NCBI RefSeq assembly: GCF_000332315.1
Contig: NZ_KB235933.1
Span: 1,197,487-1,246,261, forward strand
Length of the DNA stretch: 48,775 bases
Reading direction: 5' to 3'
Source: Prochlorothrix hollandica PCC 9006 = CALU 1027
GTDB taxonomy: Bacteria; Cyanobacteriota; Cyanobacteriia; Prochlorotrichales; Prochlorotrichaceae
The stretch's first letter is position 1; every line of letters starts with the position of its first letter. The notes below the pieces were generated by a model, which was given only the letters and a program-made list of their open reading frames with translations, made no database searches and was not told the DNA's origin. Positions 1 to 32,284 of the stretch are shown here, one piece after another. The translations under genes were made by a program, and so were the position numbers.

Positions 1-120
1 CCCTTCGATGCTCTACTCTACCGAGACCCCGAACCTTGTTTTGCTTCTGCTAAGGCCAAGCAAAAACACCTCGAACAATTCTCGATTGAGCGAGTGCAGA
101 CCTTTTACTGTTCTGCTTGA
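1..120 (+). CDS. C-terminal fragment of an unidentified protein (cut by window edge)
   Basis: An open frame runs from the first base to a TGA at 118-120 and encodes 39 residues ending in FYCSA. It is rich in charged residues and looks like the end of a soluble protein, but I recognise no family. It could be a chance open frame. The rest lies outside the window. Confidence 0.3.
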   Translation, partial: PFDALLYRDPEPCFASAKAKQKHLEQFSIERVQTFYCSA

Positions 121-429
121 GAAGCCTCTAACCAAGGCTGTCACTATCTTTCACAGATGTGTCAGTCAGTCAGGCCTACAACTGATTTAGGATTGCTGTA
201 AGGGGGGGTGTTTGATTGGGTTAAACAACCTAAAAGTTCAATAAGATTTATCAGATTTTTAATGATTATTTATGATTTTTACAATATCTTGGGAGCAGAC
301 CTTTGGTATAGTCTGAGTCATGGAACTCAAGGAGATGTTCACTCAGCATTTGTCAGCACTCAGCATCTAACGTTCACCATCAAGTTCACCATCAAACCTA
401 GAGTACCCCACGATCGGAGGGAGACCATT
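121..429. other. Upstream region of the hox cluster
   Basis: No convincing gene. It contains one end of the 103-bp repeat family (about 177-200) and then an AT-rich stretch at 235-300 that contrasts with the GC-rich surroundings. TATAGT at about 308-313 is a possible -10 box, but no -35 at standard spacing is evident. A strong ribosome binding site (CGGAGGGAGA) sits just before hoxE. Hox operons are known targets of LexA and AbrB-type regulators; I could not identify their sites by eye. Confidence 0.4.
177..200. repeat. Solo end of the 103-bp repeat family
   Basis: The 24 bases ending in GATTGCTGTA match the terminal part of the six full-length 103-bp elements elsewhere in the window. The other ~80 bp are absent, so this is a truncated copy in front of the hox cluster. 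Confidence 0.6.
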
Positions 430-939
430 ATGCCAGGGACTGCTGCTTCCACCCCCACCCAATCCCCTAGCCACGCCAGCGGCGATAAACGCTTTAAGCG
501 TTTGGATGTGGCCATGAAACGGAGCCAATACAGTGCTGATTCATTAATTGAAATCCTCCACGGTGCCCAGGAAGCCTTTGGGTTTCTTGAATTGGATGTG
601 TTGCAATATGTTGCGCAGGGTTTAAAGTTGCCCCTGAGTCAGGTCTATGGCGTGGCCACGTTTTACCACCTGTTTTCCCTGAAGCCCAATGGCAAACACA
701 CCTGCATTATTTGCCTGGGAACCGCCTGTTATGTGAAGGGGGCAGACAAAATCATTGCGGCCCTAGAAGCAGAATTGGGGGTTAAGCTGGGGGAAACGAC
801 GGCAGATGGAGAAGTATCGCTGATGTCGGCCCGGTGTTTGGGAGCCTGTGGCATTGCCCCCGCCAATGTTTATGACGGTCAGGTGCAGGGGAACCAGGAC
901 ACAGCCAGTACCCTCGCGGTGGTTCAAACCTGGCAATAA
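430..939 (+). CDS. hoxE: Bidirectional [NiFe] hydrogenase diaphorase subunit HoxE
   Basis: HoxE is the NuoE-like subunit of the HoxEFUYH enzyme. It carries a [2Fe-2S] cluster and links the diaphorase to electron partners such as NAD(P)H, ferredoxin or flavodoxin in the cytoplasm or at the membrane. The 169-residue product has the thioredoxin-like [2Fe-2S] ligand pattern C95-x4-C100 and C136-x3-C140. An in-frame extension to 208 is open, but the ATG at 430 has a good Shine-Dalgarno sequence (GGAGGGAGA) and gives the usual family length, so I chose it. hoxF follows after about 220 bp with its own ribosome binding site. All key cysteines are present and the gene looks intact. Confidence 0.93.
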   Translation: MPGTAASTPTQSPSHASGDKRFKRLDVAMKRSQYSADSLIEILHGAQEAFGFLELDVLQYVAQGLKLPLSQVYGVATFYHLFSLKPNGKHTCIICLGTACYVKGADKIIAALEAELGVKLGETTADGEVSLMSARCLGACGIAPANVYDGQVQGNQDTASTLAVVQTWQ

Positions 940-1159
940 TACGGGCAGATTGCTCAGAAAATTCTGGACGATCGGGTTCATCAAAACATCCTGGATGGGC
1001 GGGGTTGCAACCCCCCTCCACCCTTCAGGATCACCCTAGACAGACAGGCTGGAAACCCGCCTCTTAGGCATCCCCACCCCTATTCATACTTGTTAATGCT
1101 TAGCCCTGGGGACACACAACCAGGGCAGATCCCATTCCCATTACCCCAGAGGAGATTCT

Positions 1160-2797
1160 ATGGATTTAGCTGAACTGCGGGCCATTGCCCAAGCCAGCCG
1201 CGATCGCCGCAAACCCACCCGAATCCGTTGTTGCACCGCCGCCGGTTGTGCCTCCTCTGGGTCCACGGCCATCAAAACCGCCTTGGATGCTGCGGTGCAA
1301 GACCAGGGGTTAACGGACACCGTGGAGGTGTGCAGCGTCGGCTGTATGCGCTTCTGTGGTCGGGGTCCCTTGGTGGCGGTGGATCAGGGCGATCGCGAAC
1401 CGGGTCAGGTTTTGGAGAGCGATCGCCTCTATGAATTTGTCACCCCAGACCATGCCCCCTCCTTGGTGGCCAGCCTCCAGGGGGGAACGCCCGAAGCCAC
1501 GCCAGGGGACTGGAACCACCCCTTCTTTGCCCATCAGCAGCCCATAGTCCTGGAAAACAGCGGCAATATTGATCCCGAAAGCATTGATGATTACATCGCC
1601 ACCGGGGGCTATGAGCAGCTTTACCATACCCTCATGACCCTCACCCCCACAGCGGTGATTGCGGAGGTGACCCGCAGCGGCCTGCGGGGACGGGGAGGCG
1701 GCGGTTACCCCACGGGTCTGAAGTGGGCCACGGTGGCCAAAATGCCGGGGGATCAAAAGTATGTGATCTGTAATGCCGATGAAGGGGATCCCGGTGCTTT
1801 CATGGATCGCAGTGTCCTGGAGAGCGACCCCCATCGGGTGCTGGAGGGGATGGCGATCGCCGCCTATGCCATTGGAGCCAACCATGGCTATATCTACATC
1901 CGCGCAGAATATCCCCTGGCGATCGCCCACCTCAAAAAAGCAATCCAACAGGCCAAGCGCCATGGTTTCATGGGCAGCCAAATTTTTGATGCCCAGTTTG
2001 ACTTCAAGATTGATATTCGGGTGGGGGCCGGTGCCTTTGTCTGTGGAGAAGAAACGGCCCTAATCGCCTCCGTGGAAGGGAAACGGGGCAATCCCCGACC
2101 TCGGCCCCCCTATCCTGCCCAGTCTGGAGCTTGGGGTTGTCCCACCCTCATTAATAATGTGGAAACCTACGCCAACATTGTCCCCATTATTCGCAACGGT
2201 GGAGACTGGTATGCCAATATCGGCACCGCCAACAGTAAGGGCACCAAGGTTTTCGCCCTGACGGGCCAGGTGACCAATGCGGGGCTGGTGGAGGTGCCCA
2301 TGGGTACCACGGTGCGGAAAATCGTGGAGGAGATGGGGGGCGGTGTGCCGGGGGGCGGCAGCGTTAAGGCAGTGCAAACGGGGGGTCCATCGGGGGGCTG
2401 TATCCCGGAACATCTGCTGGATACCCCGGTGGACTATGACTCCCTGCGGGAACTGGGCACCATGATGGGATCGGGGGGGATGATCGTCATGGATCAAACC
2501 ACCAATATGGTGGAGATTTCCCGTTTTTACATGGATTTCTGCCGCGAAGAAAGCTGTGGCAAGTGTGTGCCCTGCCGTGCGGGAACGGTCCAACTCCATG
2601 AATTGCTGACGAAGCTGGTGAAACACCAGGCGACCCCAGCGGACTTGATCAAGTTGGAGCAACTGTGTGAGGTGGTGCGGGATACCAGTCTCTGTGGTCT
2701 GGGAATGTCGGCCCCAAACCCGATTCTCAGCACGTTGCGCTATTTCCGCCATGAATACGAGGCTTTGCTGCAAACACCGGCCTATCTCAAGGCATAG
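1160..2797 (+). CDS. hoxF: Bidirectional hydrogenase diaphorase subunit HoxF
   Basis: HoxF is the NuoF-like flavoprotein that binds NAD(P)(H) and FMN and exchanges electrons between the nucleotide and the Fe-S chain. The 545-residue product has an N-terminal thioredoxin-like [2Fe-2S] domain (CC-x5-C, then CSVGCMRFCG), the NADH-binding glycine motif GRGGGGYPTGLKW, the FMN-site motif NADEGDPGAFMDRS, and the C-terminal [4Fe-4S] ligands ESCGKCVPC with a later CGLG cysteine. The start has the ribosome binding site GAGGAG seven bases upstream. Length and motifs are those of an intact HoxF. The next gene, hcp, is 636 bp downstream beyond a repeat-rich spacer, so co-transcription is plausible but not shown. 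Confidence 0.95.
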   Translation: MDLAELRAIAQASRDRRKPTRIRCCTAAGCASSGSTAIKTALDAAVQDQGLTDTVEVCSVGCMRFCGRGPLVAVDQGDREPGQVLESDRLYEFVTPDHAPSLVASLQGGTPEATPGDWNHPFFAHQQPIVLENSGNIDPESIDDYIATGGYEQLYHTLMTLTPTAVIAEVTRSGLRGRGGGGYPTGLKWATVAKMPGDQKYVICNADEGDPGAFMDRSVLESDPHRVLEGMAIAAYAIGANHGYIYIRAEYPLAIAHLKKAIQQAKRHGFMGSQIFDAQFDFKIDIRVGAGAFVCGEETALIASVEGKRGNPRPRPPYPAQSGAWGCPTLINNVETYANIVPIIRNGGDWYANIGTANSKGTKVFALTGQVTNAGLVEVPMGTTVRKIVEEMGGGVPGGGSVKAVQTGGPSGGCIPEHLLDTPVDYDSLRELGTMMGSGGMIVMDQTTNMVEISRFYMDFCREESCGKCVPCRAGTVQLHELLTKLVKHQATPADLIKLEQLCEVVRDTSLCGLGMSAPNPILSTLRYFRHEYEALLQTPAYLKA

Positions 2798-3433
2798 TAG
2801 CCACCCAGCCCCTCTTTCCCCTGCGGTGACCCCATTCACCGCAACCCACGGTTCGACGATCCCTAAGACCCCTCAACCAGTAAGGAGGTCAGGATAATGA
2901 ATCCAAGGTAGACATAAAAACAGAGCTTGACTGACAACTGCTTGACTGACAACTGCTTGACTGACAAACAATTCTGCCTTGGGCGGGGAAACCCCACCCC
3001 TACAAGGTTGTAGTCAGGGTAGGGGTCAGATTTCCTGACCCTCCTGCTGGGTTTGAGTTCTGCTCAAGAGTAGTGAAGTCGTAACGGTACGACAAGGCTT
3101 GTAGCCCGTCTTTTCACTACCTCAACAGCACGACTCGATCGCGTCACCCAGGGGGGCGTTGGGTTTCGTCCTTCCAGCCAACCTGATCGGAGCTTACGGA
3201 GTCTTCAGGAATCCGGACCCTCAACCCAACCAATTTTTCCTACCCAATTTTCACTATCGGGCACCTCGAAAAATCCAAATTCTCGCCCCTGTACCAACGC
3301 AAGAATAGAGGGTGTGGCGGGCGGCGAAGCCGCTCAACCCCATTAATCGAGGTGCCCTATCCAATTCCCCCTATCCAATTCCCCCTATCCAATTCCCATG
3401 ATTTAACTCCCCATTCATCCCCCTTTAAAACCT
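2798..3433. other. Repeat-rich spacer between hoxF and hcp
   Basis: No gene seen. From 2926 a unit containing CTTGACTGACAACTG is repeated three times and leads into a segment (about 2965-3060) similar to 40125-40205. At 3259-3357 is a ~99-bp inverted-repeat element, and at 3358-3398 a 13-bp unit (CCAATTCCCCCTAT) occurs three times. The spacer looks built by accumulation of small repeats and could separate hoxEF expression from hcp-hoxUY. Confidence 0.6.
3259..3357. repeat. ~99-bp repeat with GGGCACCTCGA inverted ends, copy 1
   Basis: It begins GGGCACCTCGA and ends with the inverted match TCGAGGTGCCC. The interior carries GGCGGGCGGCGAAGCCGC. Related copies lie at 7614-7712 and 10857-10954, with a solo end near 38371-38394. 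It has no coding capacity and behaves like a miniature palindromic element. Confidence 0.75.
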
Positions 3434-5086
3434 ATGTTTTGCGAACAATGTGAACAAACCGCCAGCGGCCAAGGCTGTCACCAATGGGGAGCCTGTGGCA
3501 AAGGCCCAGAGGTCAATGCACTCCAGGATCTCCTGGTCTATGTGTTGCGGGGACTCGCGCCCGTGGTCTTGAAAGCAGAAGCCCTGGGGCTGCCCGTGCG
3601 GGAGATCAACGCCTTCACCTGTGAGGCGCTGTTTGCCACCATGACCAATGTCAACTTTGATGGCGATCGCTTTAAAACCTATATTCGCCAAGCCCTCGAT
3701 CGCCGTAACAGCCTCCAAGCCGCGATCGCCAGCGCCGGGGACACCGAACCTTGGCCCGCCATCGCCACCTATGAACCCCAGTGGGACGAAAGCCTCAGCA
3801 GCCAAGGCCAAGATGCCAGCCTCCTCCTGCTCCAAGAAGCTGAAGGCAATATCGATATTTTCTCCCTCAAGCTCACCACCCTCTACGGTCTCAAGGGCAT
3901 GGTGGCCTATGCCTCCCACGCCTGGGAACTGGGACAATGGGACGATAACCTGTTCCACTTCACCCAAGAGATCCTCAGCAAACTGGGGGACACCCACCTA
4001 GAAGTGGGGGATTGGGTGGCTCTGGCCCTGGCCGTGGGGCAATGGAACTTCCGGGCCATGGAATTGCTGGACAGCGGCCACACCGGCACCTATGGCCATC
4101 CCGTGCCCACCCCCGTCCCCCTCACGGCCCAGGCGGGCAAAGCCATTCTGGTGTCCGGCCATGACATCAAGCACCTGGCCACCCTGCTGGAGCAGACCCG
4201 CGATCGCGGCATCACCGTCTATACCCACGGGGAACTGTTGCCCGCCCATGGTTACCCCAAACTCAAGGCCGATAATCCCCACCTCTACGGCCACTATGGC
4301 ACCGCATGGCAGAACCAAGTCCATGATTTTGCCAAGTTTCCGGGGGCGATCGTCGTCACCACCAACTGCCTGATGCCCCCCCATGGAGAGTACAGTCCCA
4401 AGCTGTTCACCGTGGGAGCCGTGGGTTACCAGGGTTTGCAGTACCTGGAGGGGGAAACCCCCGATTTTGAGCCAGCGATCGCCAAGGCGCTGGAGTTACC
4501 CGGCTTTGCAGCCTCAGACGTGGAGACCGATCAACCGCCGCGATCGGTGTTAACCGGCTTTGCCCACCAGGCGGTACTGGGGGTGGCGGATCAGGTCATT
4601 GAAGCGGTGAAATCCGGTAAAATTCGCCACTTTTTCCTAGTGGGGGGCTGTGATGGAGCCAAACCGGGACGCACCTACTACACCGAGTTTGTGGAAAAAG
4701 TGCCCGAAGACTGCATTGTTTTGACCCTAGCCTGTGGTAAGTTCCGCTTTTTTGATAAAAACTTGGGTCACATTGGCGAGTTACCCCGTTTGATGGATGT
4801 GGGGCAATGTAACGATGCCTACTCCGCCATTCAAATCGCCCTCGGGTTGGCGACAGCCTTTGACATCGGGGTTAATGAATTACCCCTATCCATGGTTCTA
4901 TCCTGGTATGAACAAAAGGCCGTAGCGGTGTTGCTAACCCTGCTCCATTTGGGGATTAAAGATATCCGCTTGGGACCCACCCTCCCAGCCTTCCTTTCCC
5001 CCAATGTTTTGGCTATTTTGTCCCAAACCTATCAACTCAAAGCCATCACAACCCCGGATGCGGATTTGGCCGCTTGCCTCGCCTAG
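3434..5086 (+). CDS. hcp: Hybrid-cluster protein (hydroxylamine reductase)
   Basis: Hcp enzymes carry a cubane cluster and a hybrid 4Fe-2O-2S cluster; reported activities include hydroxylamine and nitric oxide reduction and protein S-nitrosylation. The 550-residue product starts with the cluster ligands C3-x2-C6-x8-C15-x5-C21, the spacing of the [4Fe-4S] type rather than the E. coli [2Fe-2S] type. Later cysteines in GGCDGAKPGR and LTLACGKFRF match the hybrid-cluster region. It lies inside the hox cluster between hoxF and hoxU, an arrangement known from some cyanobacteria, which suggests a shared redox or fermentative condition. No clear Shine-Dalgarno precedes the ATG. hoxU starts 70 bp downstream. 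Confidence 0.93.
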   Translation: MFCEQCEQTASGQGCHQWGACGKGPEVNALQDLLVYVLRGLAPVVLKAEALGLPVREINAFTCEALFATMTNVNFDGDRFKTYIRQALDRRNSLQAAIASAGDTEPWPAIATYEPQWDESLSSQGQDASLLLLQEAEGNIDIFSLKLTTLYGLKGMVAYASHAWELGQWDDNLFHFTQEILSKLGDTHLEVGDWVALALAVGQWNFRAMELLDSGHTGTYGHPVPTPVPLTAQAGKAILVSGHDIKHLATLLEQTRDRGITVYTHGELLPAHGYPKLKADNPHLYGHYGTAWQNQVHDFAKFPGAIVVTTNCLMPPHGEYSPKLFTVGAVGYQGLQYLEGETPDFEPAIAKALELPGFAASDVETDQPPRSVLTGFAHQAVLGVADQVIEAVKSGKIRHFFLVGGCDGAKPGRTYYTEFVEKVPEDCIVLTLACGKFRFFDKNLGHIGELPRLMDVGQCNDAYSAIQIALGLATAFDIGVNELPLSMVLSWYEQKAVAVLLTLLHLGIKDIRLGPTLPAFLSPNVLAILSQTYQLKAITTPDADLAACLA

Positions 5087-5156
5087 GGTTGTTGCCCCTA
5101 AACCCTAATTTTCCTGCTTGTTTCCCATCCCTTGTTTACTGTGAGGAGTAACCCCC

Positions 5157-5873
5157 ATGTCCGTAGTCACCCTGGTTATTGATGGCATTGATGTGGCGAT
5201 CGAGGCAGGAGCCACCCTGCTCAAAGCTGTGGAAGAAGCAGGCATTGCGGTCCCCAAACTCTGCCATTTAGACGGCTTAACCCCCGTGGGAGCCTGTCGT
5301 CTCTGTATGGTGGAACTGAAGGGCACGAACCGCATGACCCCCGCCTGCGTAACCCAGGTGGCTGAAGGCATGGTGGTGGACACCAATAGCGAAAAACTGC
5401 AAAATTACCGCCGCATGATTGTGGAGTTAATCTTTGCCGAAGGGAACCATGTTTGCTCCATTTGTGTGGCGAATGGCAACTGTGAATTGCAGGACACCGC
5501 CATCCAAGTGGGGATGGATCATAGCCGCTTTGACTATCGGTTTCCCGATCGGTCTATGGATCTCTCCCATGACCAATTTGGCATTGATCATAACCGCTGC
5601 ATTCTCTGTACCCGCTGTGTTCGGGTCTGCGATGAAATCGAAGGTGCCCATGTTTGGGATGTGGCCCAGCGGGGGGAACATTGCTACATCGTCTCCGGCA
5701 TGGATCAACCCTGGGGTACGGTCGATGCCTGCACCTCCTGCGGCAAATGTGTGGATGCTTGCCCCACGGGAGCCATTTTCAACAAGAGTTCCACCACCGG
5801 CGAAAAAGTGCGCGATCGCGAGAAACTAGAATTCCTAGTCAATGCCCGCGAGAACAAACAGTGGAGCCGTTAA
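5157..5873 (+). CDS. hoxU: Bidirectional hydrogenase diaphorase subunit HoxU
   Basis: HoxU corresponds to the N-terminal Fe-S domains of NuoG and carries electrons between HoxF and HoxY. The 238-residue product shows a plant-ferredoxin-like [2Fe-2S] site (C36, C47, C50, C64), the His-containing [4Fe-4S] site (H98, C100, C103, C109), and two further [4Fe-4S] sites (C148/C151/C154/C158 and C192/C195/C198/C202). All ligands are present. The ribosome binding site GAGGAG is well placed. It follows hcp closely and is followed by a 103-bp repeat before hoxY. Confidence 0.95.
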
Positions 5874-5895
5874 AATTTACTCTTTCTCTGGCTAT

Positions 5896-5998
5896 TACAG
5901 CAACCCTAAATCAGTTGTAGGCATCTCGATGGCTGAAACCCTTGGTGTGGTGTGCCCCCTCCGGGGGCACACCACACGACCCATTTAGGACTTCTGTA
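5896..5998. repeat. 103-bp inverted-repeat element, copy 1 (hoxU-hoxY)
   Basis: It begins TACAGCAACCCTAAAT and ends with the near-inverse CATTTAGGACTTCTGTA. A strong central hairpin GTGTGCCCC/GGGGCACAC lies inside. Six full copies of exactly 103 bp occur in this window (5896, 6795, 36279, 36679, 37737, 48105). Its hairpin could affect transcript stability between hoxU and hoxY. Confidence 0.9.
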
Positions 5999-6146
5999 GC
6001 CCTAAAAATTCTTGATTTCAACCTTGTTTTACCCTACATCTCCCCCCCAGGGAGAGACAGGAACTGGGTTCTCCAGTCCGTTTTTCGGTCCCCCGTCTAC
6101 CCTTTATCTACCCTTTATCTACCCTTTACCCTAGGAAACTATCCCC

Positions 6147-6704
6147 ATGGCAAAACTTAAATTTGCAACCGTTTGGTTAGCGGGTTGTTCTGGTTGCCAC
6201 ATGTCGTTCCTTGACCTAGACGAGTGGTTAATTGATCTAGCCCGCGAGGTGGAAGTGGTCTATAGCCCGGTGGGGTGCGACCTCAAAGACTATCCCGAAG
6301 GGGTGGATGTCTGCCTGGTGGAAGGGGCCGTCGCCAACGAAGAAAACCTAGAATTAGCCTATCGGGTACGCCAACGCACCAAAATGGTAATTTCCTTTGG
6401 GGATTGCGCCGTCACTGCCAATGTCCCTGCCATGCGCAATATGTTAGGGGATGGGGATGCGGGCAATGCTGTCTTGAAGCGGGCCTATTTGGAACTGGGG
6501 GATGTGACTCCCCAATTACCCGATGAACCGGGCATCGTTCCCCCCCTGTTGGATCAGGTGTTGCCCCTACATCAAGTGATCCCCGTGGATTTATATCTCC
6601 CCGGTTGTCCTCCCCCCGCCGATCGCATCCGGGCCGCGATCGAACCCCTACTGCACGGGAATATGCCCCAGATGGAAGGTCGGGCCATGCTCAAGTTTGG
6701 TTAA
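6147..6704 (+). CDS. hoxY: Bidirectional hydrogenase small subunit HoxY
   Basis: HoxY is the small hydrogenase subunit that holds the proximal [4Fe-4S] cluster and passes electrons from the HoxH NiFe site to HoxU. The 185-residue protein has the conserved ligands C14-x2-C17 (AGCSGC), C87 (GDC) and C154 (LPGCPP), as expected for the single-cluster small subunit of this group. It looks intact. A short AGGAAA lies before the ATG. Its partner HoxH is disrupted downstream, so HoxY probably cannot form an active hydrogenase module unless another hoxH exists. Confidence 0.95.
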
Positions 6705-6794
6705 TCCTGAGTCACTAGCCTGGTAGGGGCGGGGTTTCCTCGCCGTATTTCTTCCAGCGTTTCGATACTGTCCGCATCGCCGACCCAAGCCTGG

Positions 6795-6897
6795 TACAGC
6801 AGTCCGAAATGGGTCGTGTGATGTGCGCCCGGAGGGCACACACCACAGCAAGGGTTTCAGCCATCGAGAGCCTTACAACTGATTTAGGGTTGCTGTA
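6795..6897. repeat. 103-bp inverted-repeat element, copy 2 (hoxY to CBS-CP12 gene)
   Basis: Same family as 5896-5998 but in the opposite orientation. It starts TACAGCAGTCCGAAAT, ends GATTTAGGGTTGCTGTA, and has a central GTGCGCCC/GGGCACAC hairpin. Confidence 0.9.
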
Positions 6898-6929
6898 TCC
6901 AATCTAATTACCAGACCCCGGAGGTCACC

Positions 6930-7541
6930 ATGAAAGCCATCGAGATTATGACCACCCCTGTCGTCACCATTCGCGGCTCCGCCACCATTGCCGATGCCGT
7001 CCGGTTGATGCGCAACAAGGGAGTCCACGCGCTGATGGTGGAGCGGCGCAATGAAGCTGATGCCTATGGCATCGTGACGGAAACCGACATTGTTTATCAA
7101 GTCACAGCCCATGGCAAAGATCCCAAAACAGTGCGAGTTTTTGAAGTCATGACCAAGCCCTGCATTACCGTTAATCCCGACCTGGAAGTGGAATATGTGG
7201 CACGGCTCTTTGCCATGACTGGAATTCGCCGTGCCCCCGTGATCCAAGGCCAACTGCTGGGCATGATTTCCACCACCGATATTTTAGTTAAAAGTAACTT
7301 TGTTGAAGAACCCAAAGCCCAACGCCTAGAACAACTCATCCAGGAAGCCATTGCCGCCGCTCGCCAGATTTGTGCTGACGAGGGAACCACCTCTCCAGGC
7401 TGTGCTGCCGCTTGGGATGTGGTGGAAGAACTCCAGGCAGAAGCCGCCCACCAGGAAGCCAAAGGATTGATCAAAACCGCCTTTGAAGAATATTTAGAAG
7501 AGAATCCCGAAGCCCTAGAAGCTAGGGTTTATGATGTGTGA
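6930..7541 (+). CDS. CBS-domain protein with C-terminal CP12 domain
   Basis: The first ~125 residues form a CBS pair (IMTTPVVTI start, GIVTETDIV, second repeat VMTKPCITV to GMISTTDIL), a module that usually binds adenine nucleotides. Residues ~135-203 match CP12: a cysteine pair C148/C158, the AWDVVEEL core at 161-168, and ENPEALEARVYDV at the end. CP12 is the small regulator that binds phosphoribulokinase and GAPDH in the Calvin cycle; CBS-CP12 fusions are a known cyanobacterial family. The C-terminal cysteine pair of classical CP12 is absent (Tyr/Leu and Ala at those places). It sits between hoxY and hoxH with a strong ribosome binding site (GGAGGT), so it is probably co-expressed with the hydrogenase. 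Confidence 0.88.
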   Translation: MKAIEIMTTPVVTIRGSATIADAVRLMRNKGVHALMVERRNEADAYGIVTETDIVYQVTAHGKDPKTVRVFEVMTKPCITVNPDLEVEYVARLFAMTGIRRAPVIQGQLLGMISTTDILVKSNFVEEPKAQRLEQLIQEAIAAARQICADEGTTSPGCAAAWDVVEELQAEAAHQEAKGLIKTAFEEYLEENPEALEARVYDV

Positions 7542-7613
7542 TGGCTTGCCCCGTCTGTCCTGAAGCCCATACATTCCCCCGGTTCATTCCAGCATCTCAA
7601 CAATCATTCAACA

Positions 7614-7712
7614 GGGCACCTCGATTAATTACGGCGGGCGGCGAAACCGCCCGCCACAACCCCTATTTTTACGGGGGACACTGGGCGAAAATTTAGATTT
7701 TCCGAGGTGCCC
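7614..7712. repeat. ~99-bp repeat with GGGCACCTCGA inverted ends, copy 2
   Basis: It starts GGGCACCTCGATTAAT and ends TTTTCCGAGGTGCCC. The interior palindrome GGCGGGCGGCG/CGCCCGCC can form a strong hairpin. It lies between the CBS-CP12 gene and hoxH. Confidence 0.8.
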
Positions 7713-7749
7713 AACAGTATCAGCAGACCTGAGTCAGGAGCGACTAACG

Positions 7750-7899
7750 ATGGCTAAGACAATTGTTATTGATCCCGTTACCCGCATTGAAGGCCATGCC
7801 AAAATCTCCATCTTTTTAGATGATGCCGGTAAAGTGGATGATGCCCGCTTCCATGGTAACTATTCAGGGGTCTACGAAATAATGGGGGTTTCAGGCTAG
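7750..7899 (+). pseudogene. hoxH: hoxH 5' fragment, interrupted by an IS element
   Basis: The hydrogenase large subunit starts normally (ribosome binding site CAGGAG, then [18 protein letters not shown]) and keeps the conserved RIEGH motif. After codon 35 (DDARFH) the frame enters the IS and stops at the TAG at 7897-7899, giving a 49-residue product. The matching remainder resumes at 9487. The junction carries the 9-bp target duplication GCTTCCATG at 7847-7855. Confidence 0.95.
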
Positions 7900-9486
7900 G
7901 GTCTTAGGACTCAGCGGGAGGGAGAAGAGAAGGAGGAGCGAGGTGGTAGCGATGGGCACGACAAGCGTCCGTGAGGAAGTCCAGAATGGGACGTTGTTGA
8001 ACCTTGAGAGAAGAGGTGACCGTCAACAGACGGGCCACAAACTGGCTACCCTGTCGAGACCGAGAGCCAAAGCTGAGTTTGCGAGCAATCACCGCTGGTC
8101 GGAGGGAGCGCTCCGCTGCATTATTGGTGGGTTCAACACCCTCATGGTGGACAAACGTCCAGAGGGAAACCTCCTGCTTGAGGAGTTGGCGACAGGTGCG
8201 CACCGTCTTGGCCAGGGGAGTCTGCTCCCGATAGCCCACGCTGAAACTAGCCCCCTCCTCCAAACACGCCTGAAGTTGCTGACGCAGCGGCTGGATGCGG
8301 TCTTGGAGTTCAAGACGGGAGAGGGTTTGCTGTCGGAACTGATGCCACAGCTCAAAGACCTCCCGTTCCAAGGCCAGCAGTCGTTGCCCTAGCTCACCCG
8401 CGACCCCAGAGCGCTGAGCGATGGCCGTAAAGTCTCGCTTGAGATGTGCCCAGCACAGTTGACGTTGGTGGGGTTCTAGCCAGTTGTAACCGCTATAACG
8501 GTCTGAGACCACAATGCCCTGAGACTCTAACCCCAGCAGAGATTGAGCCACCTGCTGGGTTCGAGCTAACGCGATCTCAAACCAACACAGGAGGGGAGTG
8601 ACCACGACCCACAGATACCCCCGCTTCTGTTGGGGGTTGTGTCCATCAAAATTGTGTTGCGGGAAGCCAGTCTCATCGCAGTGACGCACAGGCGCTTGCT
8701 GCACATAGCTCTGGGCTTCGGACACGACGCTCTCTAGGCTCTCACTCAAGTCTTGGCGCAGGCTGTTCACTGTTCCCACCGACAGTTGCACATCCAGCAC
8801 TTCATCCAACAGCTTCACCACTTGCTGGTGACTCTGGTGACCCACGCTACTTAAATACCCCACGAAGGCGGTCAGCCTCTCCCCGTACCCTTTCTCGCAG
8901 ACTCCTTCCGGCAACTTCGCCCTCGTCTTTTCCCCACAGTGGGGGCACTCCAACTGATGCAGGCGATGTTCTTCAATTCTCACCAACACGGGCGGCAACT
9001 CTACCACTTGGTGCCGCTGGGGGGTCGCGTCTTCCCCTGTCAACTCACTCCCACAACACCGGCATTGATTCGGGTAATGCTCCTGCACGACTTCACAGCG
9101 CTCTACTGGATAAAACCCTCTCCCTTTACCCTCATGACCTTTCTGGCCCCCACGCTGACGCTCACTCTTGGCACGGCTCTCTTTCTTTTTCCCCCGAAAT
9201 CCATCTTGGGACGGGGGCTTGGACGAATTCTCTGAGGTCTGAGACGACTGCTCTTCGAGACGGGCTAGACGCTCCTCTAGTCCCTTCAGGTGCTTTTTGG
9301 CTTGCTCCAACTCTGCCAACAGCAGACTGACCGATGCTTTGACACAGGCCGGGGTCTGCTCCCAGGCTTCGATGGGCACAGGTATGGGGGGACAGATGGC
9401 TGGCTCGGATTGACTCATGCTTATGACTCTACACCCTACGGACTCCCCTTAAACCCCCTTTCTTCCGTCAACCCCTGAATAGTTAC
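7856..9486 (-). mobile_element. IS66-like insertion sequence inside hoxH
   Basis: A complete 1,631-bp element with perfect 15-bp terminal inverted repeats GTAACTATTCAGGGG and CCCCTGAATAGTTAC. It is flanked by a 9-bp direct duplication GCTTCCATG (7847-7855 and 9487-9495). One transposase gene fills it, opposite in orientation to hoxH. The perfect termini and target duplication point to recent insertion. Small derivatives with the same ends occur at 19464-19865, 37846-38140 and 42119. Confidence 0.95.
7904..9418 (-). CDS. IS66-family transposase
   Basis: A 504-residue DDE transposase. N-terminal leucine-rich coiled coil (about 25-65), then SSKPPSQDG typical of IS66 TnpC, a zinc-binding segment (CRCCGSEL and CPHCGEK), and a catalytic core with HCDETGF (first Asp), VSDRYSGYNW (second Asp) and NNAAERSLRP (Glu). 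No TnpA or TnpB accessory gene is present, as in single-gene members of the family. The frame is intact, so the element could be active. The stop lies 48 bp inside the left terminus. Confidence 0.95.
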   Translation of the reverse strand: MSQSEPAICPPIPVPIEAWEQTPACVKASVSLLLAELEQAKKHLKGLEERLARLEEQSSQTSENSSKPPSQDGFRGKKKESRAKSERQRGGQKGHEGKGRGFYPVERCEVVQEHYPNQCRCCGSELTGEDATPQRHQVVELPPVLVRIEEHRLHQLECPHCGEKTRAKLPEGVCEKGYGERLTAFVGYLSSVGHQSHQQVVKLLDEVLDVQLSVGTVNSLRQDLSESLESVVSEAQSYVQQAPVRHCDETGFPQHNFDGHNPQQKRGYLWVVVTPLLCWFEIALARTQQVAQSLLGLESQGIVVSDRYSGYNWLEPHQRQLCWAHLKRDFTAIAQRSGVAGELGQRLLALEREVFELWHQFRQQTLSRLELQDRIQPLRQQLQACLEEGASFSVGYREQTPLAKTVRTCRQLLKQEVSLWTFVHHEGVEPTNNAAERSLRPAVIARKLSFGSRSRQGSQFVARLLTVTSSLKVQQRPILDFLTDACRAHRYHLAPPSLLPPAES

Positions 9487-10817
9487 GCTTCCATGTGGTG
9501 GAATATCGGGGGTTTGAAAAGTTTTGTGAGGGGCGAGCCTACACAGAAATGGCGGGAATTACTGCCCGTATCTGTGGCATTTGTCCCGTCAGTCACCTGT
9601 TGGCAGCGGCTAAAACCGGGGATAAGATTCTAGCCGTGAAGGTGCCGATCGCCGCCGAAAAACTCCGGCGCTTAATGAACCTAGCCCAACTGACCCAATC
9701 CCACGCCCTCTCCTTTTTCCACCTCAGCAGCCCCGACTTTCTCCTGGGCTGGGACAGTGATCCCGCCCGACGCAACGTCTTTGGGTTAATTGATGCCAAC
9801 CCCGACTTAGCCCGCGCCGGTATTCGACTGCGCCAGTTTGGCCAAACCATCATTGAACTGTTGGGGGCACGGAAAATCCATGCAGCCTGGACAGTGCCCG
9901 GTGGCGTGCGATCGCCCCTCACCGAAGAAAGCCGCCAGTGGATCCTCGATCGTCTCCCGGAATCCTTCGCCACCCTCCAAACCGCCCTCGACCTTTTTAA
10001 GGGACTGCTGGACAAAGCCCTCAAGGACGAAGTGGGCATTTTCGGGGAATTTCCCTCCCTCTTCATGAGCCTAGTAGCTGCCGATGGGGCGTGGGAACAC
10101 TATGGGGGACACCTGCGCTTTGTGGATGGCCAGGGCACGATCGTCGCCGACAACCTCAGCGAAGATAACTACCTCGACTTCCTGGGGGAAGGGGTAGAAA
10201 AATGGTCGTACCTCAAATTTCCCTACTATCGGCCCCTGGGATACCCCGCAGGCATTTACCGCGTGGGTCCCCTAGCCCGCCTCAACACCTGTAGCCACAT
10301 TGGCACCCCCCGCGCCGATGCAGAACTGGGGGAAATGCGCCAGCGCTTTCATGCCCCCGTCACCTCCTCCTTCCTCTACCACTACGCCCGCCTGATCGAA
10401 ATTCTGGCCTGCCTGGAAAAAATCCAGGACTTAATGGCAGACCCCGATCTCCTATCCAACCGCTGCCGCGCCACGGGAGGCGTTAACGAACTAGAAGCCG
10501 TGGGGGTCAGTGAAGCGCCACGGGGCACCCTTTTCCACCATTACAAAGTGGATGAAAATGGACTCATTGAAAAAGTCAACCTCATTATCGCCACTGGCCA
10601 AAACAACCTGGCCATGAACAAAACCGTGACCCAGATCGCCAAACACTATATCCAAGGTCCCGATATTCCCGAAGGCTTCCTCAACCGCGTGGAAGCGGGG
10701 ATCCGCTGTTACGATCCCTGTCTCTCCTGTTCCACCCATGCCGCCGGCCAAATGCCCCTCCATGTGGAACTGGTGGGTCCCGACGGCACCGTTCTCCAGG
10801 AAGCGCTGCGGGACTAG
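9487..10817 (+). pseudogene. hoxH: hoxH 3' fragment (large subunit, 440 residues)
   Basis: This is the remainder of hoxH from residue 36. It keeps the N-terminal NiFe ligands (RICGIC, C62 and C65 of the restored protein), the C-terminal ligands DPCLSC and the maturation-protease region [10 protein letters not shown]. Apart from the IS, the restored protein of ~475 residues would be complete. The first in-frame start is a GTG at 9495, inside the duplicated target, with no Shine-Dalgarno. Any product would lack the RIEGH segment and is unlikely to be active. Precise excision of the IS would restore the gene. Confidence 0.95.
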
Positions 10818-10856
10818 GCCAGCGGCTCCCCAGGTTCTGATCCCAAATTTGATCCA

Positions 10857-10954
10857 GGCACCTCGACTAATTGTGGCAGGCGGCTTCGCCGCCTGCCACA
10901 ACCGCTATTCTTGCGTTGGTACAGGAGCGAGAATTTGGATTTTTTGCAGTGCCC
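10857..10954. repeat. ~99-bp repeat, copy 3, flanked by a 16-bp duplication
   Basis: It starts GGCACCTCGACTAAT and ends TTTTTGCAGTGCCC, with the interior palindrome GGCAGGCGGC/GCCGCCTGCC. ATCCCAAATTTGATCC occurs just before and just after it, suggesting a long target duplication or a recombination product. Confidence 0.75.
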
Positions 10955-11032
10955 ATCCCAAATTTGATCCCAAAAAACAGGGTGACCTCCCAAGCCATGG
11001 AAGGCCACCCGTTATACCCTCAGGATTCGGGA

Positions 11033-11719
11033 TTAATCAGCATCCTGGTAAGAACGCGGCGGCTGAGACCCTTGGCCTGATTGCATATAGCCATGCTCAA
11101 AGGCTAGGCGCACCAACTGGGCACGGTTGCCCACATCCAACTTGTTCAACATATTAGTGATGTGGGTTTGAACCGTGCGGGGACTAATGCCCAGATGATC
11201 GCCAATTTGTCGGTTCGTAAAGCCTTGGGCCACCTCCCAGAACACCTTATTCTCCGATCGGGTCAAAGGGAGAGGTTCACGCACCTGGGTTGGTGGAGCT
11301 TTGGGCCGTTTTTTGGTCACCTGTAGGGACACTAGAAAATTACGAACCCGTTCATTGCGACCCATGTGGGCAGCGATTTTTGCCCTTAACTCCGCTAAAT
11401 GAACAGGCTTTTGGAGGTAATCATCAGCCCCCACCCCATAGCTTTGGATTCGGGTCTCTAAATCTCCCTCAGTGGATAGAAACAAAAACGGAATCAGATG
11501 AGTTTGGGTTTCGCTGTGAATGCGCCGACAGAGATCAAGGCCGTTGCCGTCGGGCAACTCCACCTCTGAGAGGATGAGATCGGGGTGGGAATGGCTTAGG
11601 TATTGGAGCGCTTCCTGGCCAGAGGAACTCACTGAAACAGTGTAGTTATGGGTGATGAGATCATCAGCCAAAGCCTTGAGATCAGGATTTTCCGTATCTA
11701 TCAGAAGAATGGTGGACAT
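11033..11719 (-). CDS. LuxR/NarL-type response regulator with atypical receiver
   Basis: A 228-residue transcription factor. Residues 1-120 form a receiver domain and ~150-215 a LuxR-type helix-turn-helix (LTRSENKVFWEVAQG, FTNRQIGDHLGISPRTVQTHITNML). The conserved lysine is present (LQKP). The phospho-acceptor position (DLILSEVELP) is Glu52 instead of Asp, and the acidic pair near residue 8 is reduced (IDTE). Glu often mimics phosphorylation, so the protein may act independently of a kinase. It lies downstream of and convergent with the hox cluster; a link to hox is not shown. No histidine kinase gene is adjacent. Confidence 0.85.
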   Translation of the reverse strand: MSTILLIDTENPDLKALADDLITHNYTVSVSSSGQEALQYLSHSHPDLILSEVELPDGNGLDLCRRIHSETQTHLIPFLFLSTEGDLETRIQSYGVGADDYLQKPVHLAELRAKIAAHMGRNERVRNFLVSLQVTKKRPKAPPTQVREPLPLTRSENKVFWEVAQGFTNRQIGDHLGISPRTVQTHITNMLNKLDVGNRAQLVRLAFEHGYMQSGQGSQPPRSYQDAD

Positions 11720-12358
11720 AATAACGCGAAAGTGGATAATTTTTCAGAAGAACCCCCCCCATGGGTTTGAAGTTATGGCGAAACCTATGATCATGAGGGG
11801 TCTACCGTACTGCTGCCCAAGACAAGAGCAGCGTCTGGAGCGCCTCCCATGGGTAGGTGTCACCAGGGTGGGAACGCCGGGATGGGGTTCAGTAGGCTAG
11901 AGATACCAGGCCAGAGATACCAGGCTAGAGATACCAGGCTAGTCAGACCGGCAACAGACGGCTAGGGACAGAACCCCATGGAACAGAACCCCATGGAACC
12001 GATCCAGAGCCAGGGGACTACAACCCCCAGCCCATACCCCCCTGGAGCCTCGGCTATAGCCAACGCTGGCAGACGACAACGGGAGGGCTTAGACTCCGCC
12101 TTAATGGTGGATCTAAACCGTAGTTGTTGCTCCTGGGCAGTTCTATCGATCTGTACGCCAGCTTGAACACACCCCTTTGAACACACCCCCTTAAACACAC
12201 CACCGTTAACGGAATTCGTAGTTGCCGTAGCATTTCCCATCCAAACCCAGGAATTTCTACTAATAAGGGTGGTATCACATCGAGTTGCACCGGTTACTCA
12301 GGCATTAGGTTTATGATTAGTCCTACCTTGCCCAGGGATGATGATATAAAACCTGTAG

Positions 12359-14230: not shown

Positions 14231-14330
14231 TAAGCTACGGTAACTGAAGCTAGGGTAAGTGAAGCTACGGTAACTGAAGCTAAGATAAGTGAAACTAGGG
14301 TAAGTGAAGCTAAGATAAGTGAAGCTACTG
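14231..14330. repeat. 15-bp tandem repeat at the NRPS 3' end
   Basis: About six units of GAAGCTAGGGTAAGT with variants (ACGGTAACT, AAGATAAGT) lie between the transpeptidase remnant and the NRPS stop, overlapping its last codons. Confidence 0.85.
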
Positions 14331-17300
14331 CAATCGATCGAGACAAGCCTGAAACCCTTGGGCAAAGGGTTGGAGGTGGGGCATGGTAAACATATTGTGG
14401 TGATAACTGGTGAGGGGAATCGTGGTCAATTCCCCTTGGATAAATTGTCCAAGACCGTTGTATTTCAACTGATATTCCTTAGACAGAAAGAGGGTGACCG
14501 AACCACCATAGGGCTGGGGTTGATAGGCTAAGGTAGCCGCTAAAAATTGCTCGTAAAGGTGACGATCGCGGGCCAAACTATTCCCCTGCACCTGAGCCAC
14601 CAATTCCGCTTGTTCCACCTCCAGGACCAAAGCTGTCTGCTGGGGGGAACCGGTTCGGCTGAATTTCTGAGTCAACCATTGCCGAATCCCCTGGCCTTTT
14701 TCCAGCTTTTGTTGTTGGAATTTATAGACCACATAATCCCAGCCATAGCGCCTGATCATCCGCCCATTGGCCCGCAACCCAAAGTCCTTGGGATTCGGTT
14801 GCCACAGGGTATCGATAAACCCCAGAAAAACCACCTGTTCCCCCTGCTGTCGCAACTGTTGGGCCATCTCATAAATGACATAGGTGTCGCCACAATAGGC
14901 CGCCAAAGCATAGGGACCCTGGGGCTGAACCCCGCGCACCTGTTCCAGCAATAACCGGGCAAAGGTGGTGAGGGGAATCGCTGTATTTTCCGGCAATTGA
15001 GCCAGGGGCAAACTGAAAATACTGAGACCATAGACCGTTTGTTGGGGATCCAGATGGGAGACCAAACCTCTGAAGTGGGCCAGGGCATTGACCACAAACA
15101 GGGGTAACGGGCGAGTGCCTTGGTGGAGGGGAGTCAGGGGGACAGGGACGGCGATCGCCGCCGAGTCCTGATCGAGAATTTGGGCTAATTGGCCCAGGGT
15201 GGGGGACTGGAAAAAATCCCCCAGGCGTAAGGGATGGTACTGGGGTGGGGGAAAGGCAGCAGCGATCGCCACGGTCAGTTCCATGGCCAGCAGGGAATGC
15301 CCCCCCAACTCCAGAAAGTTAGATCCTGACTCCAGATCCTCCACCGTTAGAAATCGTCGCCATAGATCCCCTAAACGCTGTTCTGTGGGGGTGAGAGCAG
15401 CGGGGGGGTTCGGCTGGGATCCTGAAGCTTGACCGACAGCGGGTAGACCGACAGCGGGTAGACCGACAGCGGAGGGATCGGGGAGGGATCGCCGATCGAC
15501 CTTGCCATTGGCGGTGCGGGGAAAGGCCGACAGCAGCACAAACTGGGAGGGCACCATGTAGGGGGGCAGGGAATTCTGCAAAAACAGCCGTAAATCCGAA
15601 GAACTAGGGCCATGGGCGGGATCCTGAGGTACCCCATAGGCCACTAAGGTGGGGGATCCTCCCGCCGGTTGCCACAGACGAACCACTGCCCCCTGGAGTT
15701 GGGGATGGCGCTCCAGGGTTCGCTCCACCTCCCCCAGTTCTAGGCGGTGACCCCGGAGTTTCACCTGCTGATCCCTGCGCCCCAAAAATTCCACTGTGCC
15801 GTCCCGATGCCAACGCCCTCGATCGCCCGTGTCATAGAGTCTTACAGAATTTTGCTGATAAATAGACTTTAATTCTGGTGATTCTGGTAATTCTGGTGAT
15901 TCTGATGATTCAGGCCAGCTTTTCTCAATAAATCGCTCCGCCGTTAACTCAGGCCGCTGCCAGTAGCCCCGCGCCAACCCATGGCCCCCAATGTAAATGC
16001 CCCCCGGCACCCCCACGGGACAGGGCTGACCCTGATCGTCCAGGATATAAACCTGATTATTGGCGAGGGGTTTGCCAAGGCGCACTGATGCACCAGGGGG
16101 ATGGAGAGCCAGGATCTCTGGGGTTACGGGCTGAATGAGAGACCAAATGGTTGTTTCTGTGGGTCCATAAACATTCCAGACCTTACCCCCCGCCCCTTCT
16201 GCATCCACCGCCGCCAGTAAATAGGCTGCTAAGGGTTGGGACAGGGCTTCCCCCCCGGATAACCCTTGCAGGCCCGGTTGACCAGCCCATCCGGCTAGGC
16301 GCAACAGTTGCCAGGTGGTGGGGGTGGCTTGCAGCACCGTGGCCCCACACTGCTGGATCAGATCCGCCAACAGAAACCCGTCCCGCTGAGCGGCCTGGGG
16401 CGCAATCACCACCTGGGCACCAAGGCTGAGGGGTAGCAACAGTTCCAGGGCTGCAATGTCAAAGGAGAGGGTGGTGAGGGCCAGCCAGCGATCGGCGGCG
16501 GTCAGTTGCAAGTGGTGTTGCATGGCCCACAGCAGGTTCACTAAGCTGCCGTGTTCGATCGAGACTCCCTTGGGTTGCCCCGTGGAGCCGGAGGTATAAA
16601 TCACATAGGCCAGATCCCCAGGGGATACCGCAGGCAGGGGGGGTAGGCGTAAGTCTAAGGGTGGATTTGTAGGATTTGGGGAGTCTTGATCGGTCAGTAG
16701 TCCGTTTTCAGTCCATAACCCATCCCTAAGGTGATCAACACCCTGGGGAGTCAGACTAGGCTCAACACTAGGCTCAATACTTAACTCAACACTAGGCTCA
16801 ATACTTAACTCAATACTAGGCTCAATACTTAACTCAATACTAGGCTCAACAGCACTACTCACACCCAAACTAGCATCAGTCACACCCGAACTAGCGCCAG
16901 TCACACCCGAACTAGCGCCAGTCACACCCGAACTAGCGCCATCACTAGTAGCAGTCTGGTTTAAGGTGTCCAGATTTAAAGTATCAAGATTTAAAGTATC
17001 AAGATTTAAGGTGTCGAGATTTAAAGTATCAAGATTTAAAATATCAAGATTGAGATAGGCTAAATCCCACCCCCGGAAGGGAGACAACTCCCCATCCATC
17101 AAAGTTGTTTCTGTGACTAACAGCTTGATTTGGCTATCTTGGGCCATATAATAGAGACGATCCGGGGGATAACTGGGATCCAGGGGCACATAGGCAGATC
17201 CCGTCAACAAAACCCCCAACACCGCCACCCCCAACCGCTGCGATCGCCCCAACCCCAGACCCACCCGATCGCCGGGAACCACCCCTCGCTGCCGGAGTTG

Positions 17301-18881
17301 GTGGGCTAACACCGTTGCTTGTTGCACCAGTGCCCCATAGGTCAGGGTTATATCGCCATAGATCACAGCGATGGCCTGGGGCGATCGTTGGCTTTGGGCC
17401 ACAATCAAGTCAGAAACACAACAGGGGGGATACTCTCTAGCCGTTTGGTTCCAGTGGACGAATTGTTGCTGCTGCTGGGGCGGCAACAGGGGCAGTTGGC
17501 TGAGGTTCTGATCTGGATCCCGGAGAATACCCCCAATCCACACCTGAAAGGAGTCAATAAAAGCCGCGATCGTGGCCCCATCATAAAGGTCGGTATTGTA
17601 CTCTAGGGTGCCCTGGAGTCCCTGGCTGTCCGCCTCCATCAGCAGGGTTAAATCAAACAGCGCTGATCCTTTTTCCAAGGGCCAGGGATCCACCGTGACA
17701 TCGGGCAGAATCAAATCTCCTTGGGGTACATTTAGAAACGTAAAAAAGACCTGGTACCAAGGGTTATAGCTGCTGTTGCGGGGGACAGAGAGATGGGAAA
17801 GGAGCGCTTCTAGGGGTAAATCACCCTGTTGGAAAACCTGGAGGCATTCATGGCGCATCTGGGCCAGAAAATCCCGAAACGTTTGGGGTCGATCGCAGCG
17901 GGAACGCAACACCACAACACCCATCACACAGCCGACGAGGGATTCCGTTGCGGTGGTTTGCCGGTTAGCCATGGGGGACCCCACCACCAAGTCCGGTTGG
18001 TGACTGTAGCGGTGTAACAGGCCCATAAATGCCGCCAACAACACCATGTAGAGGGTGCAGCCCGACTCTTGGGCTAGGGTCTGGAGGCGGTGATGGGTGG
18101 GGCGATCGAGGTGGAAGGACTGAATACGCCCCTGGAACTGTTGCACCGGGGTCCGGGGGCGATCGCTGGGCAGTTCCAACAAGGGTGGAGCATCCTCTAA
18201 CTGCTGTAGCCAAAAGGCTAGTTGCTGTGGATTTAAGGGTTGCTGACGTTGCCAGCGGGAAAAATTAGCATAATCTAGGGTCAAGGGTTCTGGATCCCAC
18301 TTTTCCCCCCGTATTTGGCAGCTATAGGCTGCTGACAGTTCCCGCCGCACAATCCCCAGGGACCAGCCATCCGCCACAATATGATGCAGGGTCAGCAGAA
18401 AAATTCCCCTCGGTTCCCCCCCTGGCTGTTCCCGCCCTGGCTGTTCCCGCCCCGCCTCTAGGGGTTGCGATAGCTCTAGAAAAAAGGCCCGAATCGGAGG
18501 AGTTTGCTCCAGATCAAAGGGACGGCGGGCTTCCGCTTCCACCAACCCTTGAGCTTGGCTGATGGGATCTGTGGAGGGTAGGGTTTGGCGGCTGAAGGGA
18601 ATCGTAAACTGGGGCAGAATACGCTGCACCGGCAACCCCACCACCAGGGGAAAGAAGGTGCGGAGGCTACTGTGGCGATCGCTGATCTGCTGTAAAGCCG
18701 TGGCCAATGCCTCCAGATCCCAGGCTCCCCGCAACTGAACCGCAACGGTGAGGTGATAGACGGGACTCAATAAGGCTCGCTGATGTAGTAACCAAATTCG
18801 CTCTTGGGAGACCGAGAGGGGATAGTCTACGGGCAAGGCGGGGGTTACAGGGACAGGGGAGGGAATGGGATCCGTGGCCAT
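14325..18881 (-). CDS. Single-module nonribosomal peptide synthetase (C-A-PCP-TE)
   Basis: A 1518-residue NRPS. Condensation domain (~20-450) with HHIVADG at 166-172; adenylation domain (~470-1120) with YTSGSTGQPKG, NVYGPTETT, YDTGDRGRW and NGKVDRRSLP; carrier domain with LGGHSLLAMEL near 1190; C-terminal thioesterase-like domain (~1240-1518). The adenylation pocket read by alignment to GrsA is D-I-L-Q-L-G-V-I-W, close to a code I recall for glycine. The thioesterase nucleophile elbow reads AAYCGDTY, with Cys where most have Ser. Residues ~607-715 are a low-complexity insertion of short repeats (LNLDT, ASSGVTG, EPSIELSI) just before the ATP-binding motif. A leading condensation domain implies an upstream acyl or peptidyl donor; only a carrier-domain remnant is found nearby. 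Product unknown. Confidence 0.9.
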   Translation of the reverse strand: MATDPIPSPVPVTPALPVDYPLSVSQERIWLLHQRALLSPVYHLTVAVQLRGAWDLEALATALQQISDRHSSLRTFFPLVVGLPVQRILPQFTIPFSRQTLPSTDPISQAQGLVEAEARRPFDLEQTPPIRAFFLELSQPLEAGREQPGREQPGGEPRGIFLLTLHHIVADGWSLGIVRRELSAAYSCQIRGEKWDPEPLTLDYANFSRWQRQQPLNPQQLAFWLQQLEDAPPLLELPSDRPRTPVQQFQGRIQSFHLDRPTHHRLQTLAQESGCTLYMVLLAAFMGLLHRYSHQPDLVVGSPMANRQTTATESLVGCVMGVVVLRSRCDRPQTFRDFLAQMRHECLQVFQQGDLPLEALLSHLSVPRNSSYNPWYQVFFTFLNVPQGDLILPDVTVDPWPLEKGSALFDLTLLMEADSQGLQGTLEYNTDLYDGATIAAFIDSFQVWIGGILRDPDQNLSQLPLLPPQQQQQFVHWNQTAREYPPCCVSDLIVAQSQRSPQAIAVIYGDITLTYGALVQQATVLAHQLRQRGVVPGDRVGLGLGRSQRLGVAVLGVLLTGSAYVPLDPSYPPDRLYYMAQDSQIKLLVTETTLMDGELSPFRGWDLAYLNLDILNLDTLNLDTLNLDTLNLDTLNLDTLNQTATSDGASSGVTGASSGVTGASSGVTDASLGVSSAVEPSIELSIEPSIELSIEPSVELSIEPSVEPSLTPQGVDHLRDGLWTENGLLTDQDSPNPTNPPLDLRLPPLPAVSPGDLAYVIYTSGSTGQPKGVSIEHGSLVNLLWAMQHHLQLTAADRWLALTTLSFDIAALELLLPLSLGAQVVIAPQAAQRDGFLLADLIQQCGATVLQATPTTWQLLRLAGWAGQPGLQGLSGGEALSQPLAAYLLAAVDAEGAGGKVWNVYGPTETTIWSLIQPVTPEILALHPPGASVRLGKPLANNQVYILDDQGQPCPVGVPGGIYIGGHGLARGYWQRPELTAERFIEKSWPESSESPELPESPELKSIYQQNSVRLYDTGDRGRWHRDGTVEFLGRRDQQVKLRGHRLELGEVERTLERHPQLQGAVVRLWQPAGGSPTLVAYGVPQDPAHGPSSSDLRLFLQNSLPPYMVPSQFVLLSAFPRTANGKVDRRSLPDPSAVGLPAVGLPAVGQASGSQPNPPAALTPTEQRLGDLWRRFLTVEDLESGSNFLELGGHSLLAMELTVAIAAAFPPPQYHPLRLGDFFQSPTLGQLAQILDQDSAAIAVPVPLTPLHQGTRPLPLFVVNALAHFRGLVSHLDPQQTVYGLSIFSLPLAQLPENTAIPLTTFARLLLEQVRGVQPQGPYALAAYCGDTYVIYEMAQQLRQQGEQVVFLGFIDTLWQPNPKDFGLRANGRMIRRYGWDYVVYKFQQQKLEKGQGIRQWLTQKFSRTGSPQQTALVLEVEQAELVAQVQGNSLARDRHLYEQFLAATLAYQPQPYGGSVTLFLSKEYQLKYNGLGQFIQGELTTIPLTSYHHNMFTMPHLQPFAQGFQACLDRLQ
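16745..17055. repeat. Expanded tandem repeats inside the NRPS adenylation domain
   Basis: Three in-frame arrays: a 15-bp unit (ATTTAAAGTATCAAG) around 16970-17050, a 21-bp unit (ACACCCGAACTAGCGCCAGTC) around 16870-16945, and ~24-bp units containing CTAGGCTCAATACTTAACTC around 16755-16850. All lengths keep the reading frame. Confidence 0.85.
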
Positions 18882-22779: not shown

Positions 22780-22859
22780 TCAGATGAGTCTATGGAATTT
22801 CCCTGAAGGGGTGAGGATGGACTGACCAGCGTTTGGGTTGTCACACCATTGCCATCCGT

Positions 22860-32280: not shown

Positions 32281-32284
32281 CCCT

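Follow-up and report, generated by a model that had tools for sequence, protein, structure and literature searches.

In this study, we find that an intact gene for a CBS-CP12 fusion protein lies between hoxY and hoxH in a 48,775-nt stretch of the Prochlorothrix hollandica genome (the window), and that genes with a CP12 domain occupy the same place in hox clusters of many other lineages of the phylum. Relatives of the protein also persist in genomes that have no match to the hydrogenase. We propose, with moderate confidence, that the protein is a generic brake on phosphoribulokinase (PRK), belonging to the already known CP12-N-CBS class, which is made together with the bidirectional hydrogenase through its placement in the hox operon.

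The ORF at 6930-7541 (+) encodes 203 aa in an intact frame. Two CBS stretches (Pfam PF00571, E 1.7e-24) are followed by the CP12 domain in a single chain, as in the CBS-CP12 fusion family, and among solved structures PDB 5nmu, 'CBS-CP12', comes closest (E 3.5e-79, residues 2-202), with 65% identity over 202 residues and one gap. The Pfam domains and the 5nmu match rule out a chance ORF or a sequencing artefact. Gxx[ST]xxD-type motifs are conserved in both CBS domains, as seen from the alignment and from motif counts. In the CP12 part, the N-terminal cysteine pair (C148/C158) and AWDVVEEL, which corresponds to the AWD_VEEL core, are kept, and the positions of the C-terminal pair are aligned with L189 and A198. 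The N-terminal pair and core motif together with the missing C-terminal pair place the protein in the CP12-N-CBS class; the CBS fusion and the absent C-terminal pair set it apart from canonical CP12, one of which is also encoded in the genome, as is PRK. The domains, the 5nmu match, L189/A198 and the GGAGGT sequence thus bear out the description in the first-pass annotation of a CBS-CP12 fusion inside the hydrogenase operon, without the C-terminal cysteine pair and with a ribosome binding site of its own.

Table 1. Features of the hox cluster and of the CBS-CP12 gene, with positions in the window.
Feature	Position	Strand	Evidence or remark
hoxE	430..939	+	PF01257; conserved order; start codon chosen by us inside longer ORF 208-939
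hoxF	1160..2797	+	Complex1_51K, NADH_4Fe-4S, SLBB
hcp	3434..5086	+	Prismane PF03063, E 4.9e-152; arrangement as published for Lyngbya (PMC2674450)
hoxU	5157..5873	+	Fer2_4, NADH-G_4Fe-4S_3
hoxY, hydrogenase small subunit	6147..6704	+	PF01058; conserved position
103-bp palindromic repeat, hoxY/CBS-CP12 gap	6795..6897	+	About 40 genome copies at 85-95% identity; hairpin fold z -4.0
Shine-Dalgarno-like GGAGGT, four bases 5' of CBS-CP12 ATG	6920..6925	+	Sequence read directly
CBS motif 1 GIVTETD, residues 47-53	7068..7088	+	G47 and D53 invariant in 11-sequence alignment
CBS motif 2 GMISTTD, residues 111-117	7260..7280	+	G111 and D117 invariant in 11-sequence alignment
CP12 domain, residues 133-202	7326..7535	+	Pfam PF02672, E 3.3e-28, full model; alignment with T. 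elongatus-type CP12 and 5nmu
hoxH 5' piece, target duplication included	7750..7855	+	HoxH N-terminal sequence; insertion site
IS66-family insertion in hoxH, transposase 7904-9418	7856..9486	-	DDE_Tnp_IS66; terminal repeats; GCTTCCATG duplication
hoxH 3' piece	9487..10817	+	NiFeSe_Hases; sole match to that family in genome

The genes of the cluster follow one another in the order hoxE, hoxF, hcp, hoxU, hoxY, CBS-CP12, hoxH (Table 1), and the CBS-CP12 gene qualifies as a hox operon member by its strand and by its conserved position in other genomes. It is separated from hoxY by 225 bp, or about 120 bp when the 103-bp repeat is subtracted, which is inside the range of other clusters (6-176 bp, the smallest gaps being 6 and 23 bp). 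A search for promoters and terminators in this gap gave matches at chance level only, and no known RNA element was found in an Rfam search of bases 1-12000. An inverted copy of the 103-bp repeat at 5896-5998 occupies the hoxU-hoxY gap, so that two inverted copies flank hoxY, and a 21-bp core of the repeat is present at five further places in the window. In Lyngbya, hoxEF-hcp-hoxUYH was established as one operon by RT-PCR (PMC2674450, PMC3858816); the order is the same, including hcp between hoxF and hoxU, but in Lyngbya hoxH is intact and follows hoxY without a CBS-CP12 in between.

The set hoxEFUYH is not intact in the window, since an IS66 element interrupts hoxH. This element is complete, with matching 16-bp terminal repeats GTAACTATTCAGGGGT and a clean target duplication GCTTCCATG, and the first piece of hoxH reads into a stop inside it. 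Besides the split hoxH, there is no second match to a NiFe large subunit in the genome. The operon therefore no longer makes a complete hydrogenase here, and CBS-CP12, whatever its present function, has no active Hox enzyme left to coordinate with in this strain. Many stretches identical to the IS66 element are found elsewhere in the assembly, often paired about 100 bases apart, as if copies of the element remained as assembly gaps. Damaged clusters were also seen in other genomes: that at L268 (G005) is degenerate, with hoxE, hoxF and hoxY each in two frames and only a fragment match to hoxH, and hoxH of G239 is likewise in two frames.

CBS-CP12 and HoxH were both searched for in a sample of 291 genomes from the phylum, and the positions were intersected; a CBS-CP12 gene counted as linked when it shared the strand of hoxH and lay no more than 2 kb from it. 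A hoxH match was present in 69/291 genomes and a full-length CBS-CP12 also in 69/291. Of the 69 hoxH genomes, 26 showed linkage. In 25 of these, which represent six family groups, CBS-CP12 immediately precedes hoxH in the slot after hoxY, and in the remaining one, from a seventh group, it lies downstream of hoxH; 19 of the 26 linked cases come from a single family group (f7), so these genomes are not independent. Wherever the retrieved stretch spans the cluster, the DNA reads hoxE-F-U-Y-CBS-CP12-H. The adjacent CBS-CP12 genes that the first-pass annotation had suggested looking for in hox clusters are therefore present in many lineages and at the same position, and the association is not peculiar to the window. 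Finding CP12 in one spot in many lineages indicates that the carbon fixation and hydrogenase pathways are probably wired together. No CP12 gene adjoins hoxH in 40 of the 69 genomes with a hoxH match.

Reading the DNA around hoxH in genomes without linked CBS-CP12 revealed three in which hoxH has a stand-alone CP12 (72-90 aa) as its neighbour, located between hoxY and hoxH in G290 and G164 and downstream of hoxH in G027; in the family of G164, the same stand-alone CP12 is beside hoxH in ten genomes. None of these proteins has an intact C-terminal pair, all keep AWD.VEE, and the N-terminal pair is also absent from those of G290, G027 and members of genus g127, with some (G290 and g127 types) containing no cysteine at all. 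The element common to the slot is hence the CP12 hairpin core, and neither the CBS pair nor the cysteines. In other members of genus g127 (L316-L336), the cysteine-free hox-slot CP12 adjoins genes for an RNase D-like protein and an RRM RNA-binding protein, and most of the members with this arrangement have no hoxH match.

In every one of the 26 hox-linked CBS-CP12s the N-terminal cysteine pair is present and the C-terminal pair is not intact; AWD.VEE is kept with few changes. Among 67 other CBS-CP12 rows, both pairs are intact in 12 and the N-terminal pair is absent in about a third. A C-terminal pair that is not intact is the usual state of CBS-CP12, hox-linked or not. At the thresholds used, no alignment column separates hox-linked from other CBS-CP12s. 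The earlier argument, by which the missing cysteine pair moves control away from the thiol state and towards nucleotide binding, finds no support in these counts: with the N-terminal pair still in place, thiol control is not removed, and lack of an intact C-terminal pair is the norm in this class. The wider idea in the first-pass annotation, that a single regulator coordinates fermentative or excess-reductant metabolism with carbon fixation, holds up in part; the recurrent hox association and the conserved CBS motifs speak for it, and the cysteine argument has to be given up. In canonical CP12, the N-terminal half mainly contacts PRK and the C-terminal tail contacts GAPDH, and the part lost is therefore likely the GAPDH arm. 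A conserved -WCSG tail with a single cysteine replaces the normal CP12 end in several CBS-CP12s, hox-linked (L068, L085, L086, L087) as well as unlinked (L096, L099, L105, L110, L130), and it also ends the CBS-only neighbour at the unlinked locus L100. A further variant is a CP12 split over two tandem CBS genes with half a CP12 each (L107:3028-4275, L112:3026-4252, L113:2977-4203, L117:3004-4230), the upstream gene encoding a CBS pair and the C-terminal tail (..YCEEFPDAPEARIYED) and the downstream gene a CBS pair and the N-terminal hairpin (..CAAAWDIVEELL..) without the tail. A mixed oligomer of the two products could rebuild a whole CP12.

As read from the trees, hox linkage has changed several times. 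At least nine changes are required to explain where a CP12-domain neighbour is present on a tree of HoxH, HoxY and HoxU, and supported branches force six of these; for the linked label on the CBS-CP12 tree, six changes are required and four are forced. A single clade of the 26 linked CBS-CP12 rows was rejected (AU p 0.0045), whereas a clade of the linked rows with five unlinked relatives, which were picked after seeing the tree, was not (AU p 0.71). Since gains and losses cannot be told apart on the trees and the clade result differs when the five relatives are added, we claim neither a single origin nor any number of independent gains.

According to the PRK brake model that we favour, the hox operon position would cause CBS-CP12 to be made whenever the bidirectional hydrogenase is made, presumably by co-transcription in this organism. 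The CP12 part would act through the PRK-binding hairpin that is kept (C148/C158, AWD_VEEL), the C-terminal GAPDH cysteine loop having been lost. Under the dark, micro-oxic or over-reduced conditions of Hox use, the CBS pair may, by analogy, read the adenylate state, and CBS-CP12 would then hold PRK inactive without building the GAPDH/CP12/PRK complex. ATP and NADPH would in this way be spared from CO2 fixation while reductant passes to protons, which may be the purpose of the arrangement. AMP binding and PRK inhibition are proposed for the P. hollandica protein from the CBS-CP12 of Microcystis which, as relayed by reviews, binds AMP, forms a hexamer and inhibits the thioredoxin activation of PRK, and which forms no ternary complex (Hackenberg 2018 via PMC9406205, PMC9514657). 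The Microcystis aeruginosa protein (PDB 5nmu/5npl/5nvd) has the same full-length architecture at 65% identity, with both CBS motifs, the N-terminal pair and AWD_VEEL; it differs, however, in having an intact C-terminal cysteine pair, and its near-identical copies among the 291 genomes are not hox-linked. Canonical CP12 (e.g. PDB 6gfo) shares the PRK-binding hairpin, the cysteine pair and AWD_VEEL, whereas the Prochlorothrix protein carries a CBS pair in front and has lost the C-terminal GAPDH-binding cysteine loop. It counts against the model that CBS-CP12 of Synechococcus 7002 failed to replace canonical CP12 in Synechocystis (PMC9514657). The redox part of the model is weakened by the slot CP12s that lack all cysteines.

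The CP12 gene might instead simply ride along, neutral or of slight use, in a suitably regulated hox operon, with no functional coupling. The patchy linkage with its repeated changes on the tree, the intact CBS-CP12 here next to a broken hoxH and the occurrence of the same CP12 beside unrelated genes in genus g127 would all fit such hitchhiking. We nevertheless regard it as rather unlikely, since two different CP12 architectures share one position and a rough calculation gives a chance expectation of 0.12 genomes with a CP12-domain gene beside hoxH against 29 seen, a figure that is only indicative because related genomes share ancestry. It is also unlikely, in our view, that the target of the slot's CP12-domain protein is the hydrogenase; the protein might, for instance, bind the NAD(P)-dependent HoxFU diaphorase, or protect or assemble HoxYH, with the CBS pair, where there is one, making it responsive to nucleotides. 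Its position exactly between both subunit genes, in many lineages and in two architectures, is what such a role would predict, and in family f7 the hox-type gene is found in 20/23 genomes with a hoxH match and in 0/8 without, although joint loss of neighbours explains this too. Unlinked hox-type copies lay in hoxH-bearing genomes in 5/5 cases versus 48/67, numbers that are too small to count, and the G164-type CP12 and hoxH showed no significant association in family f24 (17/36 vs 9/29, p 0.21). On the other hand, the conserved features are those that contact PRK, the hox-linked copies have no private residue signature, and related proteins persist without hoxH, with CBS-CP12 in 18 sampled genomes and a slot-type stand-alone CP12 in 19 family-f24 genomes that lack a hoxH match. 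Such persistence without hydrogenase is expected if the target is not the hydrogenase, and together with the missing signature it leads us to favour a PRK brake over a hydrogenase subunit or regulator. That the CBS pair acts mainly on thioredoxin or another partner with CP12 as a redox tag, in line with the CBS-thioredoxin-CP12 network proposed in PMC3906501, is improbable given the CBS-less stand-alone CP12s in the same slot, which show that what the slot proteins share is not the CBS pair.

A gene between hoxY and hoxH has been described before in Anabaena sp. PCC 7120, where alr0765 belongs to the hox expression cluster and is annotated as hypothetical (PMC4915528). The alr0764-alr0766 arrangement likewise has one gene between hoxY and hoxH and, judged by synteny alone, alr0765 may encode a CBS-CP12. 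The CP12-N-CBS class of cyanobacterial CP12-like proteins (Stanley et al. 2013 via PMC3906501) shares with the Prochlorothrix protein the CBS fusion, the N-terminal pair, the core motif and the lack of the C-terminal pair, and the available summaries of that work contain no mention of a hox operon position. In the full texts searched on CP12 or CBS domains together with hox, we found no report of a recurrent linkage, the two key CP12 papers (Stanley 2013, Hackenberg 2018) being covered through reviews. Extra ORFs in the hox cluster are reportedly present in older work on Anabaena variabilis. For both these reasons, the absence of a report on the linkage is no proof of novelty.

Some other features of the window are recorded here. 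Genes resembling those for the large (22833-27464) and the small (38570-40054) subunit of glutamate synthase lie about 11 kb apart. The interval between them contains genes for a DNA methylase at 29058-31196 and, at 32267-35767, a type III Res-like helicase; both of the latter contain an in-frame PHPLTPSPK.GEG..RPGRGAGGEG-like stretch, which resembles a repeat element inserted in coding sequence. Between its recognisable parts, a large NRPS-like ORF at 14325-18881 (-) carries short peptides repeated in tandem (NLDTLNLDTL.., EPSIELSIEPS..).

Tentatively, a broader joint reading may be considered in which CP12 is a recurrent part of the hox operon, lineages place CBS-fused or CBS-free and sometimes cysteine-less forms between hoxY and hoxH, and the slot form is a switch that depends only in part on redox cysteines and links hydrogen metabolism to the Calvin cycle, or else a hydrogenase binder. 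A comparison of CBS-CP12 with the cysteine-less stand-alone CP12 of the same slot would reveal the working part of CP12, and for hydrogen-producing strains the CBS-CP12 gene is an obvious target for deletion. The CP12 gene of the hox cluster offers a concrete and testable genetic connection between hydrogen metabolism and the Calvin cycle in cyanobacteria, two processes in competition for one reductant.
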